21,352 nt of DNA from a virus: positions 1 through 21,352 of IMG/VR virus record IMGVR_UViG_3300042691_036019; one strand, given 5' to 3'. Below the pieces are notes generated by a model. It did not search any database. It saw only the letters and a list, made by a program, of their open reading frames with translations, and was not told the origin of the DNA. Positions within the stretch are counted from its first letter, which is position 1. Every line of letters starts with the position of its first letter. Shown here in pieces: positions 482 through 13,959 of the stretch. The translations under genes were made by a program, and so were the position numbers.

Positions 482-778
482 ATGAAAATATTACTTTTTT
501 TAGCATTATTAAACGTTAGCTATGCTCAATCGGGTCAAGCTTTATATAAAACTAAATGTGCTTCTTGTCACAATTTAAACCCAACTAAACCTGGTAGTAT
601 TGGTCCTGATATAGCTGGATCTAGTCTAGAGCTAGTGCGATTAAAAACGCAAAATAGAACATATCCGGCTAACTATAAACCAAAAAGAAAGACTAGGGTA
701 ATGCCAATAATTAAGTTATCAGAAACGCAAATAAAAAATATACATGAATATATAAATACTTTTTTGAAAAAGAAATAA
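482..778 (+). CDS. Small exported class I c-type cytochrome
   Basis: The 98-residue product starts with a hydrophobic signal peptide (residues 1-15, likely cleavage after the Ala of SYA). It then has the haem c attachment motif CASCH at 26-30. The sequence after it (GPD at 41-43) is typical of small mono-haem cytochromes. A Met-Pro pair at 74-75 supplies the probable sixth haem ligand, and a C-terminal helix (about 80-95) completes the fold. Size and order fit a complete class I cytochrome c. It would need the host Sec and cytochrome c maturation systems and would carry electrons in the periplasm. The gene starts 3 nt after the zinc protein, with no clear ribosome site of its own, so coupling is likely. 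A cytochrome is unusual cargo for a phage. Redox partners cannot be inferred here. Confidence 0.88.
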   Translation: MKILLFLALLNVSYAQSGQALYKTKCASCHNLNPTKPGSIGPDIAGSSLELVRLKTQNRTYPANYKPKRKTRVMPIIKLSETQIKNIHEYINTFLKKK

Positions 779-1019: not shown

Positions 1020-1163
1020 CTAAAAAATTAGAATAGCAACACTAAAGCCAATTAACATTAACGAAAAAACTAAAACAGGATTAATTGAAAAAATGGAAGA
1101 AAGTAAACTTATTCCGATTAGTAAACATAATCCTCCAATTAATTTTAACATACTTTTTGCCAT
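1020..1163 (-). CDS. 47-residue membrane mini-protein
   Basis: Translating the leftward strand from ATG 1163 gives 47 residues, nearly all hydrophobic. Two membrane segments (about 6-24 and 28-47) are joined by a short loop with Pro. The start overlaps the end of the upstream 140-residue gene. An alternative ATG at 1151 would lose four residues. No strong ribosome site is visible, so coupling to the upstream gene is likely. It could be a small holin-like or membrane-modifying peptide, but nothing in the sequence proves this. Confidence 0.5.
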   Translation of the reverse strand: MAKSMLKLIGGLCLLIGISLLSSIFSINPVLVFSLMLIGFSVAILIF

Positions 1164-1567
1164 AAACTATTTCTTAATATCCTTAATTTTTCTGATAAAA
1201 GTTCTTCAGGAGCATCCATAACAATTTCTTTATCGATATGGGGGTATTTATTACAAACGTAATTAAAAGCAAACTTAACAACTTTCCTTTGCCATAAACG
1301 TATTAAAGGAGCAAAAAATCTAAGGGGTCTACACGTAACGTCGAATCGCCAAAGCCAATTAGGATATTGGCTGTAAACATAACCTGGGTGTGTCATAGAG
1401 TGGAGTGTTCCATCACATAAATCTATCGTCCATCGAGCAGTACCAAACTTTTCCTTACTATGAACTCCTATTCTACCAAATTTTTGCATAATATTAGTAG
1501 CTTCATCTATAGCCATATATAAAGATTGCCAATCAAAGTCTGTATCATTCCAATGATGAAAAGGCAT
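1145..1567 (-). CDS. Conserved phage protein with a KEKFGxxR motif, unknown function
   Basis: The 140-residue product contains 'HSKEKFGTARWTIDL' (about residues 37-51). It matches a KEKFG-T-R motif I recognise from many small phage proteins of unknown role. The rest is rich in Trp and Tyr and has basic stretches; there is no signal peptide or membrane span. The ATG at 1567 overlaps the stop of the upstream mini-protein (TAATG) and has a GGGG ribosome-site remnant. Its neighbours are tiny membrane proteins. No catalytic motif is visible. Confidence 0.7.
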   Translation of the reverse strand: MPFHHWNDTDFDWQSLYMAIDEATNIMQKFGRIGVHSKEKFGTARWTIDLCDGTLHSMTHPGYVYSQYPNWLWRFDVTCRPLRFFAPLIRLWQRKVVKFAFNYVCNKYPHIDKEIVMDAPEELLSEKLRILRNSLWQKVC

Positions 1568-2586: not shown

Positions 2587-3128
2587 AAATTACTTCTCAT
2601 ATCTCTAAAATATTTAGTCATACCATACCATTCCTCATGCGAATATCTATTTCCTTTAGAATTATTACATCTCCAACAACATACAATTAAGTTTGATTTT
2701 TCATATCCATTTGAATTATTCATCCTGTCTAAGTTATATCTAGACCCATTTTTAAATAGATTAACTTTTGTCCACTTAACTTCCTCATAACAATATTGAC
2801 AATTATTAATTTTGGTAAATTCTAAAAATTCAATATAAGTTAGAGTTACTTTAATACTTTTTTCAATTGCATTTTTTAATAAATTATTATATAAGGCTTC
2901 GTAGGGTCTTTTTACGGTAGGGTTAGGTACTAACCTAGCTTTTTTTAATTTTATTAAATTAGCACATCTTTTACAATTACCAGACCAATTACTTAAACAG
3001 TATTTATCCCTATAAATAATATTTGTACAATTTTCATTTTTACATCTACATTTAAAATAGGAGACCAATTTTTTTATTGATCCCCTTTCTTTTTTAACTT
3101 CTTCTAAAATTAATTCTTGATTTTTCAT
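2583..3128 (-). CDS. Free-standing HNH endonuclease with N-terminal zinc knuckles
   Basis: The 181-residue protein has an N-terminal cysteine-rich module (Cys near 27, 29, 34, 44, 52 and 55). An HNH module of the phage type follows: Cys pair at 110/113, the 'YNLDRMNNSNGY' beta-hairpin (about 131-142), and 'CWRCNN' with Cys at 151/154. Such enzymes nick or cut DNA and are often mobile next to nucleotide-metabolism genes. The frame extends upstream to 3155, but I chose ATG 3128 because it overlaps the ribonucleotide reductase stop (ATGA), with GGAG upstream. The reductase C-terminus is intact, so this is a free-standing gene and not an intron ORF. Confidence 0.85.
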   Translation of the reverse strand: MKNQELILEEVKKERGSIKKLVSYFKCRCKNENCTNIIYRDKYCLSNWSGNCKRCANLIKLKKARLVPNPTVKRPYEALYNNLLKNAIEKSIKVTLTYIEFLEFTKINNCQYCYEEVKWTKVNLFKNGSRYNLDRMNNSNGYEKSNLIVCCWRCNNSKGNRYSHEEWYGMTKYFRDMRSNL

Positions 3129-5011
3129 TTTATTGGACAAACTCCAGTTGCACATTCTGCGTCCATTTCAAAATCACCTATTACTGAAAGAGATTCAATT
3201 TTTTTCACTTTAGCAGAAAGTTTATCAAATTGTTCTTCATTAATTTCTTCTAAAGGTGCTTGAATAAATCCATGTTCCGAATGTAATAAAAAGGAAACAG
3301 TTTTTAAATAAAAATTATAGTTTTTCGAAAGCCATTGTTTAATTTCTTGAAGTTCTTCTTTTTTATAATAAATAGTAACTGACACAGCATTATCAGACCA
3401 TTCTTTTTGTAATCTTTTAATAACTTCTAATTGATCAATAGCTGTCATATCTTTAGCAAATGTAGTTCCTTTTGGAAAACAACTAGGAAATGAAACAACC
3501 ACCGTGTTTTTATCTTCAGTTCCATCAAAGTTTTTCTGAAACTCTATAGGATATCCATGACTTCTACAAACTTCAACTAATGAATTATTAGATGCAATTC
3601 TAATACGTCTAATGTGATATTGAGAATAACCCGGATGTGCCCCAGGAGTTACTCCTGCTAATAAACTTAAAGTACCACTAGGTTTAACTGTAGTAAGTTT
3701 AATAGAAGTCGGAAATCCATTTTTTTTAGAATAATCAACGTCATAAGCTCTAAGCATTTCATAAGCATCTGAAAGCCAAGAACGTTGTTCTTCCGTTGCT
3801 TGTAAATATCCTGTAATACCAATTCCCATTCGCATATTTTTATGAACAATAGCTTCTGTTTCAGGGTGATGACAGGGTAAAGATAAACTATGTTTAGCAA
3901 TTCTATAAAGATTTTTTAAAACTTGAAACAATCTTTTTTTAGTTTTAATATTTGGGAGAAAAGTTTCAGCTAAACAACAAGTTTCTTTATCTTCTAAAGA
4001 TTGTTCAGCACAAGGATTAAATCCAATTATGTTAGAATCTGGATATTGTGTTTCTCCTGTTCTACCAATAGTTTGAGCAAGTTTAAGATTAATTAATCCG
4101 TAAGGTTCACCGTTACCATTGTAACCTTGCCAAAATTGTTCAGGTAAAAGAGAAAAATCATTACAAACAACAGAATTATTTGACATCGCTCTCCAATTAG
4201 GAATATTACCTAAATCCCAACGTTTAGCATTTAAAAATTGTAAATCATCCATATCACCAATAGCAATTTGTGCGGATCTTCTTACATTTCCCGCTACAAC
4301 TACAGACCCAATAATATTCATTATATCTAAACAATCAATCGGACGAACTTTTTTACTAGCTCGAGAATTTAAAAGCTTATTAATTTCTGTAATTCCCCAA
4401 CAAAGATCTTCTGGTCCTGAAGCAACTCCGCCAAATCCTTTAATTAAAGTTCCTTTCCCACGAATACAAATAGTAGAGTAACTAAACCCTTTTCCGGTTA
4501 TAAAATGCGATTCTAAAGTTTTTTGAAGAAGTTCTACCCATCCTTGACGAGTATCGGGAACAATATAATCAGCATCTTTTGTATCTTGTCTTATAATTTT
4601 AACTTTTTTAGGTTTTGGAAGCTCGTATACATGTTCTCTTTGAATATTAAACCCAACCCCACATCCTAACATTAACATATCCATAGCCCAAGTAAAAGGA
4701 CGAATAGGTTCATTTACAAGCGTTACAGCGCAGTTTTGTAAAGAAGGTAATCCAAGTTTATCAACAGTTTTTGTTCCTAATTGCCATAAAAAACGTCCAG
4801 CTACAATACCTTCTAAATTAAGCATCATTTGTCTAACATCTTCTTTTTCTTCTGAAGTAAATCCAACTTTTAATTGTTTATCACAAGCGTTTAATACTCT
4901 TTCAATAGTTTGTTCAAATTCTTCTGTTGGGGAATTATCTTCATCTTTTAATTTTCTAGCATAAGTTCTTTTAAATGTCGGATAACCTATAGGACCCCAA
5001 GGAATTGTCAT
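3125..5011 (-). CDS. nrdJ: Adenosylcobalamin-dependent (class II) ribonucleotide reductase
   Basis: The 628-residue enzyme would reduce ribonucleotides to deoxyribonucleotides for phage DNA synthesis using a B12-generated thiyl radical. Key residues follow the Lactobacillus leichmannii enzyme. They include the first active-site Cys in 'LQNCAV' (Cys94), the 'NPCAEQSL' loop with the radical Cys334 and Glu336, the partner Cys345 eleven residues on, the 'GNVRRSAQIAIGD' segment (about 241-253) and the C-terminal redox pair in 'CATGVCPIK'. It is about 110 residues shorter than the bacterial enzyme. ATG 5011 has an AAGGAAA ribosome site. It heads the group coupled to HNH, a mini-protein and SemiSWEET. 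Oxygen independence would let it work in aerobic or anoxic hosts that have B12. Confidence 0.93.
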   Translation of the reverse strand: MTIPWGPIGYPTFKRTYARKLKDEDNSPTEEFEQTIERVLNACDKQLKVGFTSEEKEDVRQMMLNLEGIVAGRFLWQLGTKTVDKLGLPSLQNCAVTLVNEPIRPFTWAMDMLMLGCGVGFNIQREHVYELPKPKKVKIIRQDTKDADYIVPDTRQGWVELLQKTLESHFITGKGFSYSTICIRGKGTLIKGFGGVASGPEDLCWGITEINKLLNSRASKKVRPIDCLDIMNIIGSVVVAGNVRRSAQIAIGDMDDLQFLNAKRWDLGNIPNWRAMSNNSVVCNDFSLLPEQFWQGYNGNGEPYGLINLKLAQTIGRTGETQYPDSNIIGFNPCAEQSLEDKETCCLAETFLPNIKTKKRLFQVLKNLYRIAKHSLSLPCHHPETEAIVHKNMRMGIGITGYLQATEEQRSWLSDAYEMLRAYDVDYSKKNGFPTSIKLTTVKPSGTLSLLAGVTPGAHPGYSQYHIRRIRIASNNSLVEVCRSHGYPIEFQKNFDGTEDKNTVVVSFPSCFPKGTTFAKDMTAIDQLEVIKRLQKEWSDNAVSVTIYYKKEELQEIKQWLSKNYNFYLKTVSFLLHSEHGFIQAPLEEINEEQFDKLSAKVKKIESLSVIGDFEMDAECATGVCPIK

Positions 5012-5172: not shown

Positions 5173-5724
5173 TTAACTACCTACTATCCAATGATAACTG
5201 TTCGCTTTATATTTAGGCAAGTTCTTTTTATCATCTATTAAAGCAGCGTCTAAAAATTTTATTCTGTATTGAGGATATAAAACAAAATAATCATCTGTAG
5301 TTTGTATAGCGTGAAGTTGTTTCCAGTGTGTTGGATGTCTAGAATATCCCTCTCCAATAAAATCTATTGTAAAAAGGTATTTTCCAAGCTTATTTATGTG
5401 CTCACCCTTAACTTCGCATTCAGCATATCGCAATGATTCCATTGTAAATACTTCTATAGAATCACTTATACAATCCCACATTTGAGCATCAAATAATTCA
5501 AGTTTTCTATCCAATAATTTTTCTGTAAAAGTTATTGCATTTGCCGGTAAGCCAGTAAATAAAGCTCCGTTATCCAATAAAACAGTAAACTGAAGCGCTT
5601 GATTTTGTCTAGCCCTAACTGAAATTAAATGACCGCCAGTTTTACCTTCCTGACTAGAATCACTATCAAATAAAAAATAATCCCAAACAAAAACTCGAAT
5701 AGGAGGCAAATTTTGATTATTCAC
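5173..5724 (-). CDS. Conserved phage protein of unknown function, 183 residues
   Basis: The product begins 'LPPIRVFVWDYFLFDSD' and is acidic, aromatic and predicted soluble, with no signal or membrane segment. The N-terminal half looks beta-rich ('HLISVRARQNQALQFTVLLDNGALF'). I recognise this layout from phage hypothetical proteins but not from a characterised family. The start is GTG 5724, which overlaps the glycosyltransferase stop (GTGA), with GGAAG upstream. It is placed between the glycosyltransferase and the ribonucleotide reductase. Confidence 0.72.
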   Translation of the reverse strand: MNNQNLPPIRVFVWDYFLFDSDSSQEGKTGGHLISVRARQNQALQFTVLLDNGALFTGLPANAITFTEKLLDRKLELFDAQMWDCISDSIEVFTMESLRYAECEVKGEHINKLGKYLFTIDFIGEGYSRHPTHWKQLHAIQTTDDYFVLYPQYRIKFLDAALIDDKKNLPKYKANSYHWIVGS

Positions 5725-6644
5725 TTAAAAACTTCCATTTCGACCATACAATCAATAAACTTATTAGCTGTCATTTTAGTTACACACTCAGCTAATTCCA
5801 TTTTTCTAGGACAATCGTTAAAATTCCAACGATTTAAAGACCAGTTAGATTCACAAAAATTACATAAAATATTCGGAACCACAGATCGAGTTTTAGCTAA
5901 ACCTCTATAAGGAATTCGTAAATCTGGACGTATTGTAGTAAAACCACAAACAACTGGTACATCCGTTGTAAATGCTAAATGGATTGGTCCAGAATCCATT
6001 CCTATAACACACTTAGACATCCCCATAATTGTAGCCAGTTCTTCAAGGGTTGTTTGATTCATCAAGTCTACACCAAATCCTGGGTAAGTAAATTCAGTTT
6101 TAGCTAAATTCTTTTTCCAAATACTAATAGCTCCAGTTTTACCAACATAAACAGGGATTAACCCCCTAGCTTGTACATATTCAGCAATTTTTACAATCTC
6201 AGATGCAGGGATGGTTCTTTGACGATCACGAAAGGTAGTTATAAGAACTACAGCTTTACTGAAATCTACATTAAATTTGGATACATCAACTTTTGGTAGC
6301 GGGACATATTTTGTCTCGTAGTCTTTTAAAACACGTCCTAATAAACCAATAGAAGCATATTCAGTTAGTTTTAAACGTGAAGGAGTAAGACGACAATTTA
6401 AACCAGAGCCAACCAACATATTTAAATGACGAACTGCATAGGACTTATCGTACTCAGGTTTAACTTCAACAAACTTGTCTTCTGGAATAAAAGGAAATAA
6501 ACATTTAAAGTGTTCGTGAATACCTACTAGATAATTACCAGTAGAATGAAAGTTATCTATAGCATATTTTAATGTAGGCGCACTAGCGATTAAATCTCCA
6601 ACTGCTGCGCTATTTAAACAGTAAACAACTTTATCTGAAACCAT
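5721..6644 (-). CDS. Glycosyltransferase family 9 (LPS heptosyltransferase-like)
   Basis: The 307-residue product has the GT-B features of family 9. It has an N-terminal 'NSAAVGDLIASAPTLKYA' segment (about 10-27), where the Gly-Asp after a small-residue run is conserved. Near the C-terminus it has 'VIGMDSGPIHLAFTTDVPVV', the family's nucleotide-sugar binding signature. Family members transfer ADP-heptose or similar sugars onto lipopolysaccharide. In a phage it could modify the host surface, phage DNA or a virion protein. A TTG at 6656 is in frame, but ATG 6644 overlaps the upstream stop (TAATG) and has TTGGAG at proper spacing, so I use it. The C-terminal Cys-rich part ('NILCNFCESN') might bind metal. 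Confidence 0.85.
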   Translation of the reverse strand: MVSDKVVYCLNSAAVGDLIASAPTLKYAIDNFHSTGNYLVGIHEHFKCLFPFIPEDKFVEVKPEYDKSYAVRHLNMLVGSGLNCRLTPSRLKLTEYASIGLLGRVLKDYETKYVPLPKVDVSKFNVDFSKAVVLITTFRDRQRTIPASEIVKIAEYVQARGLIPVYVGKTGAISIWKKNLAKTEFTYPGFGVDLMNQTTLEELATIMGMSKCVIGMDSGPIHLAFTTDVPVVCGFTTIRPDLRIPYRGLAKTRSVVPNILCNFCESNWSLNRWNFNDCPRKMELAECVTKMTANKFIDCMVEMEVFK

Positions 6645-7576
6645 TAAAATCTCCAATTAGGTTTTTTGTTTGCAATCATCTGCGATGTCACAACTAAAGC
6701 TTTAGGTTTAGGCTTCATGCTAGGTGCTTCAAATTGAGCATTAATAAGGGCTTCTTCGATTGTGCTATGAAGACCTCTAGCTCCTAAATTCTTTTTTATA
6801 GCCTCTAATGAAATCATAGTCAAAGCGCTATCTTCTACGATTAATTCAATTCCTTCGCTTTCAAACCATTCTTGATAGGATAGTAATACAGATCCTTTAG
6901 AATCAGTTAAAATCTTTTTGTAATCTTTTACAGTAAGTGAATGAAGCTTTGTAATAATTGAAAATCTACCAAGAAATTCTGGTATCATTCCATATTTAGT
7001 TAATGATTGAATTGATGTGTCTGGTAAATCAACAAAAGCTCCTGAGCAAATAAACATAATACCAGAAGTATTTAATGATTTATCATAAACGTCACTACCG
7101 GAATTAGATTGATAAGGTACTTCGGAGCCTTCGATTAATTTTAAAAGACCTTGCTGTACTCCTAATCCCCCAACGTCAGGTCCGTCAGTTCCGACATTTT
7201 TACGAATTTTGTCAATCTCATCAATATAAACGATAGATTTAGAAGCTCTTAATTCACTGTTTTCACATTTAACGATCAAGTCTTTAATAATTTCCTCAAC
7301 GTCTCTTCCTTTATAACCAGATGAAGAAAATTGAGTAGCGTCTGTAGTTAAAAAATCAGTTTTTAAAATTTTAGCTAAAGTTGAAACAAGATAAGTTTTA
7401 CCACATCCAGTCGGACCAATAAGTAATACGTTAGATTTTTTTAGATTTTTATGAATCTTTCTTTTAAAATGATTATAACCAGCTAAAGCCAAATATTTCT
7501 TAGCTTCTTCTTGACCTATAACGTATTTGTCCAACTCGGCTTTAATATGTTCAGGAGTCATTTTAATAGAACTCAT
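6644..7576 (-). CDS. ClpX-like AAA+ unfoldase without ClpP-docking loop
   Basis: This 310-residue ATPase aligns by eye with the core of ClpX. It has Walker A GPTGCGKT (54-61), pore-loop GYKG (87-90, GYVG in ClpX), Walker B VYIDE (116-120), 'GVQQGLLKLIEG' (139-150), the 'PEFLGR' arginine finger (199-204) and sensor II 'GARGL' (265-269). The N-terminal zinc-binding adaptor domain is absent. Between 'FICSGAF' and 'GMIPEFLGR' there are only about 15 residues. In ClpX this stretch holds a long segment with the IGF loop that grips ClpP. It therefore probably remodels substrates alone, without ClpP proteolysis. ATG 7576 overlaps the upstream stop (ATGA). Substrates are unknown. Confidence 0.88.
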   Translation of the reverse strand: MSSIKMTPEHIKAELDKYVIGQEEAKKYLALAGYNHFKRKIHKNLKKSNVLLIGPTGCGKTYLVSTLAKILKTDFLTTDATQFSSSGYKGRDVEEIIKDLIVKCENSELRASKSIVYIDEIDKIRKNVGTDGPDVGGLGVQQGLLKLIEGSEVPYQSNSGSDVYDKSLNTSGIMFICSGAFVDLPDTSIQSLTKYGMIPEFLGRFSIITKLHSLTVKDYKKILTDSKGSVLLSYQEWFESEGIELIVEDSALTMISLEAIKKNLGARGLHSTIEEALINAQFEAPSMKPKPKALVVTSQMIANKKPNWRF

Positions 7577-12138: not shown

Positions 12139-12551
12139 GCGATATTATAGATTTTAATCAATTTAAAAGCGATAAGGAATGGCGAGAATTTGCCAATAGA
12201 CAAACTGCTACAATTTTAGCTCTACAAAATCAAATAAAATTTCTTGAAGAAAAGCTTACAGAATCAGAAAAGCTTTTAAAAAATACTACGCAAGTTTCAC
12301 CCCTTACAGTAAACTCAAATGAAGAAGAGTTATGTAAAATTGAAATTAAAAGACTTTATGATAAAGCAAAAATGCAACCTTTGGAATGGAACGAAGTTCG
12401 TTCATTTGAAGTATACGTAAAAGCTTTAATAGCAATTAAAAATAAAACTCCTGAAGAAGTGAGTAAAAAATCCGATAAAGCTCCAAAAATGAATCAAGCT
12501 CAGTTGCTAGAGTTAGCTTTGAAGGCAACAGATGAATCAACCGAACAATAA
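12135..12551 (+). CDS. Putative small terminase subunit
   Basis: The 138-residue protein has an N-terminal coiled coil (about 10-50) and a linker. A second helical region follows ('EEELCKIEIKRLYDKAKMQPLEWNEVRSFEVYVKALIAI', a span of about 63-101) and a polar tail. No helix-turn-helix is obvious. The assignment rests mainly on position: it lies directly before and overlaps the large terminase gene by 20 nt, where TerS is usually found. It is coupled to the upstream membrane protein by ATGA. Confidence 0.55.
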   Translation: MSDIIDFNQFKSDKEWREFANRQTATILALQNQIKFLEEKLTESEKLLKNTTQVSPLTVNSNEEELCKIEIKRLYDKAKMQPLEWNEVRSFEVYVKALIAIKNKTPEEVSKKSDKAPKMNQAQLLELALKATDESTEQ

Positions 12552-13959
12552 TTTAACCCCAGCTCAAGCTCGTACAATATTATGGAGACAAGGTAGAATT
12601 GTCGATTTCCTATTGGATAATAACCAAATGGAAATTTACAATTCGTTAAAAGATGGTAAGGGTGCTAAACATACAGTAGTGGCTTTATTTAGTCGTCAAA
12701 CTGGTAAATCCTACGGTCTTCTTACAATCGCAACACAAGAATGCTTAACTAGAAAAGGCATTACAGTGGTGTTTATCGCACCTAGATTAAAACAGGCTAG
12801 AAAGATCGCTAAAACTAACATGGCAGAGATTCTTAAGACCTGTCCAGAAGATGTTAGACCTAAATATAACGCTAAAGAAGAATCTTATTATTTTCCTACT
12901 ACAGGCAGTACGATTGAATTAGCCGGATTTAATGCGGACGAAGTTGAATCACAACGGGGTCCTAAAGCTCATTTAATTATCGTTGATGAGTGCGGGTTTA
13001 TGAGTAATCTTAAATACGGCTTGAAATCGGTTTTATATCCAAAGCTTAATACAACTAAGGGGTCGATGATCCTTTGTTCAACTCTCCCTCGTTCACAAGG
13101 GCATGAATATTTTGAGTTTATTAAAAAAGCTGAATATAACGGTACTTTAATTAAGAAAAACGTGTTAGAATGTCCTAGATATATCAAGGAAGATATAGAT
13201 AGATTTGCAGAAGAAGTTGGCGGATATGATAGCGTAGATTTTAAACGTGAATATCTGAATATAATGATTACTGATGACGAGTACGCAGTTGTTCCAGAAG
13301 CTACTGAAGAATTGATGCAAGAGATAGTTAAAGAAGTTCCAAAGCCCCCTTATTACGATGTTTACGTTGGTATGGATATTGGGGTAAAGGATTTAACAGT
13401 GGCGTTATTAGGTTACTATGACTTTAAAAAAAGTACTGTAGTTATTCTAGACGAGGTTGTTTTAAAAGGTAAAACGGTAACTACTGAAAGCATATACGAA
13501 AGTATTTCTTTTAAAGAAAACTTACATTTTGGTAATAAAAAACCATATTTAAGAATTGCTGATGATAACAACCAGATTCTTTTAAACGATTTATTGGCGA
13601 CAAAGAATATGCTATTTCAGATAACTCGAAAAGATCAAAAAGAAGCTGCCTTAAATAATCTAAGAGTTATGCTTGGGTCTAAAAGAATTATTATTCATCC
13701 AAGATGTAAAACTTTAATATTTCATTTAAAGAATGCTACTTGGAACAACCGTAAAACATCTTATGAAAGAAGTCCTGATAATGGTCACTACGATGCACTG
13801 GACGCTTTAGTATACCTTATAAGGAATGTAAACTTCGGTAAAAACCCTTACCCCAAAGATTATGACATGCCTATGGGGGATTGGTATATGTTAGAAAATG
13901 GCAAAAGAACACAGTTTGAACAGCGTATCTTAGATATGTTTACTACAAAAAAGAGATAA
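12532..13959 (+). CDS. terL: Terminase large subunit
   Basis: The 475-residue motor and nuclease drives DNA into the prohead. The ATPase half has a Walker A-like 'SRQTGKS' (54-60), 'IELAGFNADEVESQRG' (128-143) and Walker B 'LIIVDE' with Asp152 and Glu153. The RNase H-like nuclease half has its first Asp in 'GMDIGVKDLT' (Asp282) and closing acidic residues in 'HYDALDALVYL' (Asp421, Asp424). The order and length are complete. ATG 12532 has a GAAGG site inside the preceding gene. Confidence 0.95.
   Translation: MNQPNNNLTPAQARTILWRQGRIVDFLLDNNQMEIYNSLKDGKGAKHTVVALFSRQTGKSYGLLTIATQECLTRKGITVVFIAPRLKQARKIAKTNMAEILKTCPEDVRPKYNAKEESYYFPTTGSTIELAGFNADEVESQRGPKAHLIIVDECGFMSNLKYGLKSVLYPKLNTTKGSMILCSTLPRSQGHEYFEFIKKAEYNGTLIKKNVLECPRYIKEDIDRFAEEVGGYDSVDFKREYLNIMITDDEYAVVPEATEELMQEIVKEVPKPPYYDVYVGMDIGVKDLTVALLGYYDFKKSTVVILDEVVLKGKTVTTESIYESISFKENLHFGNKKPYLRIADDNNQILLNDLLATKNMLFQITRKDQKEAALNNLRVMLGSKRIIIHPRCKTLIFHLKNATWNNRKTSYERSPDNGHYDALDALVYLIRNVNFGKNPYPKDYDMPMGDWYMLENGKRTQFEQRILDMFTTKKR

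Follow-up and report, generated by a model that had tools for sequence, protein, structure and literature searches.

The DNA considered here, the window, is an entire IMG/VR record of 21,352 bases in which profile matches identify genes for terminase, portal, major head protein and ribonucleotide reductase. Close to its left end, at 482-778 on the + strand with the stop codon included, is an intact, ATG-initiated open reading frame of 98 codons, with relatives in other phages, whose product matches the Pfam cytochrome c profiles PF00034 (Cytochrom_C; E 1.6e-8, 36.2 bits against a cut-off of 21.3) and PF13442 (E 4.3e-7). Its first 15 residues, MKILLFLALLNVSYA (482-526, +), are a putative signal peptide without a lipobox cysteine; the hydrophobic stretch ends in SYA and is signal-like by eye. 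Of what had been claimed for this segment the signal-like sequence stands, with export itself a presumption. The haem attachment motif, CASCH, is at residues 26-30 (557-571, +), and a conserved basic loop, YPANYKPKRKTRVMP, at residues 61-75 (662-706, +), is shared by nine phage proteins and includes among its last residues the putative axial ligand Met74 (codon 701-703; Met74-Pro75, 701-706). A C-terminal helix, residues 81-96 (722-769, +), was assigned by DSSP on an AlphaFold2 model. The CASCH, Met-Pro and C-terminal helix listed in the original prediction are thus all present in a 98-residue frame. Scanning of the surrounding sequence predicted neither promoters nor terminators beyond the level of chance.

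The AlphaFold2 model, built from six sequences, has a pLDDT of 82.7 and a pTM of 0.72, and its best structural matches by VIA-align are cytochromes c (Z 9.2 and 8.9). Foldseek E-values are weak, the best being 0.05, with the listed matches nearly all cytochromes c or enzymes containing cytochrome c. A viral structural match was not found in BFVD, which is weak evidence only. Narrower identities were tried: SoxX was rejected at 24.6 bits against a curated cut-off of 61, and each of the other named NCBIfam cytochromes scored far below its own curated cut-off. Two of the checks proposed at the outset, a profile search and a structure prediction, point the same way, with PF00034 above its curated cut-off and the model resembling solved cytochromes c. 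Taking profile, motifs and predicted fold together, the product is a class I monohaem cytochrome c encoded in phage DNA, with covalent haem attachment predicted and export presumed.

Carrier phages and the setting of the gene

Pattern scans found the gene in nine further IMG/VR contigs, which represent eight distinct phages since two of them, L178 and L179, are near-identical. The homologues are 31-61% identical to the window protein over the matched part. In the alignment of nine phage proteins, that of the window included, C26, C29, H30 and M74 are invariant, and all nine keep a GP and a Y-P-x-[GN]-Y-[KT]-P-K-R loop, the window having Asn in place of Gly at the fourth position of Y-P-x-G-Y-x-P-K-R. 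As homologues with an invariant haem motif and Met occur in eight other distinct phages, the cytochrome observation is beyond chance. The search of related phages that had been advised is in this respect productive, and CXXCH is in every phage copy found. Searches of annotated phages and plasmids with tblastn gave no match to the phage cytochrome, and PHROG no convincing one; annotation libraries therefore hide the family. No further phages were found by scanning with Bdellovibrio-type cytochromes, and a phage-only scan gave no new phage carriers.

As the window gene is close to the left contig end, its context was judged in the other phage contigs. Within the window, related phage loci contain no counterparts of ORFs 3-185, 194-478 and 781-1011, whereas the neighboring gene 1145-1567 (-) is 59% identical to 14021-14440 of L001, itself a cytochrome carrier. 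The description of the gene as lying beside phage genes is therefore right, but only one flank can be judged in the 21 kb. Further downstream, 5173-5724 (-) is a phage gene with relatives of 76-77% identity near the cytochrome gene in L001, where the cytochrome gene is directly upstream of it, and in L025, where one small ORF intervenes. In L026, a contig of 88 kb, phage genes surround the cytochrome gene, and in L178 and L179 it is flanked by a scaffold-like gene and a relative of the major capsid gene (gene names by eye). In L177 and L180 it is amid shared phage genes, in the latter also near ribonucleotide reductase (by eye). A tail-sheath-like gene, again named by eye, is near the L175 copy, and one of the nine distinct carrier phages is apparently contractile-tailed.

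One alternative is that host DNA was wrongly joined to a viral contig, and the position of the window gene near a contig end, with two nearest neighbors that lack relatives in related phage loci, is what such an error could leave. However, the closest relatives of the gene belong to other phage contigs, where they have phage genes to either side, the DUF989 gene that is a near-invariant neighbor of cellular copies (below) is absent beside the phage ones, and L178 and L179, from separate metagenomes, have the same gene in the same context. That reading is close to refuted, and the refutation envisaged at the outset, that positions 1-778 are not phage DNA, does not apply given relatives flanked by phage genes.

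The large terminase subunit gene of the window (12532-13959, +; phrog_2, 1.9e-25) specifies a protein 41-62% identical to those of L001, L026, L174, L177 and L180, and by this marker most of the carriers belong to one phage lineage. From these sequences phages do carry the gene, and probably phages of two or more types. Of 21 records found via the terminase, several of which are fragments, L001 is the sole cytochrome carrier, and since most terminase relatives are without it the gene is accessory in the lineage. A distant terminase relative, L171 (G263:C4:31835-33133), from a genome of the Oligoflexia-containing phylum, has six in-frame TAG codons and may belong to a phage in which TAG is translated as an amino acid.

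Several other window genes merit a remark in their own right. The product of 5173-5724 matches PHROG_3704, termed ‘ferredoxin’ (2.8e-28), and is conserved, at 76-77% identity, among four relatives. With no more than two cysteines invariant and an Fe-S motif absent, it is probably misnamed. The ribonucleotide reductase (3125-5011, -) is 91% identical to that of L016 and only 26-28% to those of other relatives, which looks like a recent gene swap. Two genes of host-surface type, 5721-6656 (-; a family 9, heptosyltransferase-like glycosyltransferase) and 2180-2434 (-; a PQ-loop or lipid A biosynthesis N-terminal-like membrane protein), have no relatives in related phage loci. A ClpX-like AAA ATPase gene (6644-7576, -; AAA_2, 1.6e-23) has relatives of 57-65% identity in L025, L017 and L021.

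A cellular family paired with DUF989

In alignments the Y-P-x-G-Y-x-P-K-R loop, with small variations, also marks one cellular cytochrome family. A profile made from four phage and two cellular proteins was used for counting at a threshold of E<1e-18, in samples whose phylum is in each case named after the record at the center. Among the matches listed, the family is present in 60 of 291 genomes of the Oligoflexia-containing phylum (the center genome being of Bdellovibrionota by NCBI), in 5 of 247 from the phylum of L028, and in none of 398 and none of 296 from the phyla of a Gammaproteobacteria and a Flavobacteriales genome, respectively. Sampling centered on the genome of L027 drew largely the same genomes as the L028 sample. 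With narrow patterns, the best cellular matches among 84,980 species genomes were from Binataceae (48%) and Deltaproteobacteria (42%).

Beside the cytochrome gene in 34 of 36 cellular loci (L128-L163) is a gene for a membrane protein of about 240 residues, which is a short form of PF06181, the DUF989 domain of PuuD, and has two near-invariant histidines, H17 and H169. In PuuD, a urate oxidase, cytochrome c is fused to an eight-helix DUF989 domain, and the same work also recognizes a shorter DUF989 group of four helices that is without a cytochrome domain and has another gene context (PMC4562309). The adjacency suggests that short DUF989 forms work with a separate cytochrome c, the pair apparently constituting an undescribed split redox system for which urate is not to be assumed as substrate. 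Given a narrow Bdellovibrionota family paired in this manner, a specific electron-transfer branch is favored over a generic role. No DUF989 relative was detected in the window or beside phage copies at the loci examined, and with phages lacking the gene the partner must come from the host. An identification of the phage protein as PuuD itself was rejected, as it is a stand-alone protein of 98 residues and the window has no DUF989 match.

In a tree based on 88 columns, the window protein groups with those of L001 and L025 in a single clade (support 100/99) that nests with four cellular proteins (96/88), from which capture from a host is likely. The remaining phage proteins are elsewhere; the best tree has five label changes, but no more than two are required by branches with good support. 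The AU test did not reject one common phage clade (p 0.18), and capture may have happened once or several times. The source was apparently Bdellovibrio-like bacteria. For the phages, a Bdellovibrionota-type host may be inferred from the family distribution, from the closest annotated terminase being that of a Silvanigrella phage (28.5%), and from one distant terminase (33%) in the 291 genomes of the Oligoflexia-containing phylum, the last being weak host evidence.

Conceivably the gene is a neutral passenger, captured recently and with no part in infection, and its accessory status in the lineage and differing position between phages would be in keeping with this. Against it, the key residues are all retained across nine diverged phages, and changes are concentrated at third codon positions, which vary most between the window and L001 genes (dN 0.27, dS 1.61, the latter near saturation). 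A passenger is accordingly improbable.

The phage and cellular proteins also invite comparison with regard to anchorage and charge. A lipobox-like cysteine precedes the haem motif in 33 of 41 cellular proteins. None is present at the corresponding place in the proteins of the window, L001, L025 and L026, and by eye those of L174, L175 and L178 retain one. Unanchored phage proteins have charges of +10 to +13 (+11 to +13 in the window's clade) versus +2 to +8 for the anchored. For the cellular proteins the values are about +7 to +11 for unanchored versus mostly below +5, with a few at +6 to +9, for anchored. Unanchored cytochromes tend to be more basic than anchored ones. AT-rich codon usage favors lysine and could contribute to the basic charge.

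Proposed role and relation to known systems

In being a host-like metabolic gene, of a cellular family, within phage flanks, the cytochrome gene is to be classed on present sequence data as an auxiliary gene. The preferred reading, to which a probability of roughly 60% is given, is that it was captured from a host and provides a functional periplasmic electron carrier by which an electron-transfer branch of the host stays in operation. The protein would be exported to the periplasm by Sec, loaded with haem by the host's cytochrome c maturation system, and act as a diffusible, basic electron shuttle. Its electrons may come from the DUF989-type membrane protein of the host, or else the conserved YPxGYKPKR loop may be the docking site of some other donor; either way the electrons would be passed to a terminal oxidase, with the branch staying active during infection. 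In the window's clade the strong positive charge might permit electrostatic docking in place of a lipid tether. The presence of the gene in nine distinct phages, and its apparent cellular source, suggest that such viruses tune host respiration while multiplying. The original interpretation is partly borne out, in that a complete c-type cytochrome with a likely export signal recurs in related phages; support or rerouting of respiration would be its presumed effect.

A different use of the same features would be as a decoy, with the soluble phage cytochrome outcompeting the host lipoprotein for its partner and diverting electrons, e.g. so that a host response or a rival phage is held back. That the proteins of the window, L001, L025 and L026 have lost the lipid anchor but retained the docking loop would suit this, as would the DUF989 partner not being carried by the phages. 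Yet every haem and ligand residue is kept, which a simple blocker would not need, and the L174, L175 and L178 proteins keep the lipobox-like cysteine. Diversion is unlikely, and since all nine phages have intact haem-binding and ligand residues, the original suggestion that the protein might block another electron carrier becomes less probable. Protection of the infected cell, rather than energizing it, is another potential benefit, with the exported cytochrome removing peroxide or reactive species or feeding a host peroxidase. Monohaem periplasmic cytochromes c can serve as peroxidase donors, and the phage protein could do likewise. However, the neighborhoods of the phage gene showed no peroxidase gene, and in cells the cytochrome is paired with DUF989 rather than a peroxidase, making a role in redox stress distinctly unlikely.

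Maintenance of an electron-transfer branch being preferred, a more specific extension of it is tentative and held at somewhat under even odds: phages of Bdellovibrio-like hosts may repeatedly capture one DUF989-linked cytochrome c, with one clade having made it soluble and basic, thereby rewiring that branch and marking an undescribed respiratory bottleneck.

The best-known phage electron-transfer genes are those of cyanophages, whose plastocyanin and ferredoxin are small electron carriers thought to sustain host electron flow. The window protein is likewise a small phage-encoded carrier, but the cyanophage proteins are different ones and function in photosynthetic hosts, whereas here a c-type cytochrome is linked to Bdellovibrionota-type hosts. 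With the DUF989-paired lipoprotein of Bdellovibrionota the phage copies share CXXCH, the Y-P-x-G-Y-x-P-K-R loop and the distal Met, and differ in lacking a DUF989 neighbor and, in the window's clade, in the absence of the lipobox cysteine and a far more basic character. PuuD resembles the cellular pair in having a DUF989 membrane domain working with cytochrome c, but is one fused eight-helix protein, whereas in cells the pair consists of two separate proteins with DUF989 in a short form, and of these the phage has the cytochrome only. Respiratory or sulfur-oxidation redox genes are known from viral sequences, with phage copies of soxD, whose product is the partner of SoxC, lacking one or both haem motifs (PMC8190135), and cbb3 oxidase subunit I being found in virome reads (PMC3474794). 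Unlike the window cytochrome, neither specifies a stand-alone carrier. A survey of nitrogen-cycling viruses did not observe carriers such as cytochromes in its phages (PMC8115048), and no other report of a phage-encoded cytochrome c was found in the literature, coverage of which is incomplete. With due care, the family may be regarded as new cargo for a known class, the electron-transfer auxiliary genes of phages. A stand-alone cytochrome c in nine distinct phages suggests that respiratory carriers are also phage targets in non-cyanobacterial hosts. The family in addition offers a means of recognizing, by sequence, the phages of Bdellovibrionota-type hosts, about which searches found little, and exposes the split DUF989 and cytochrome c system.
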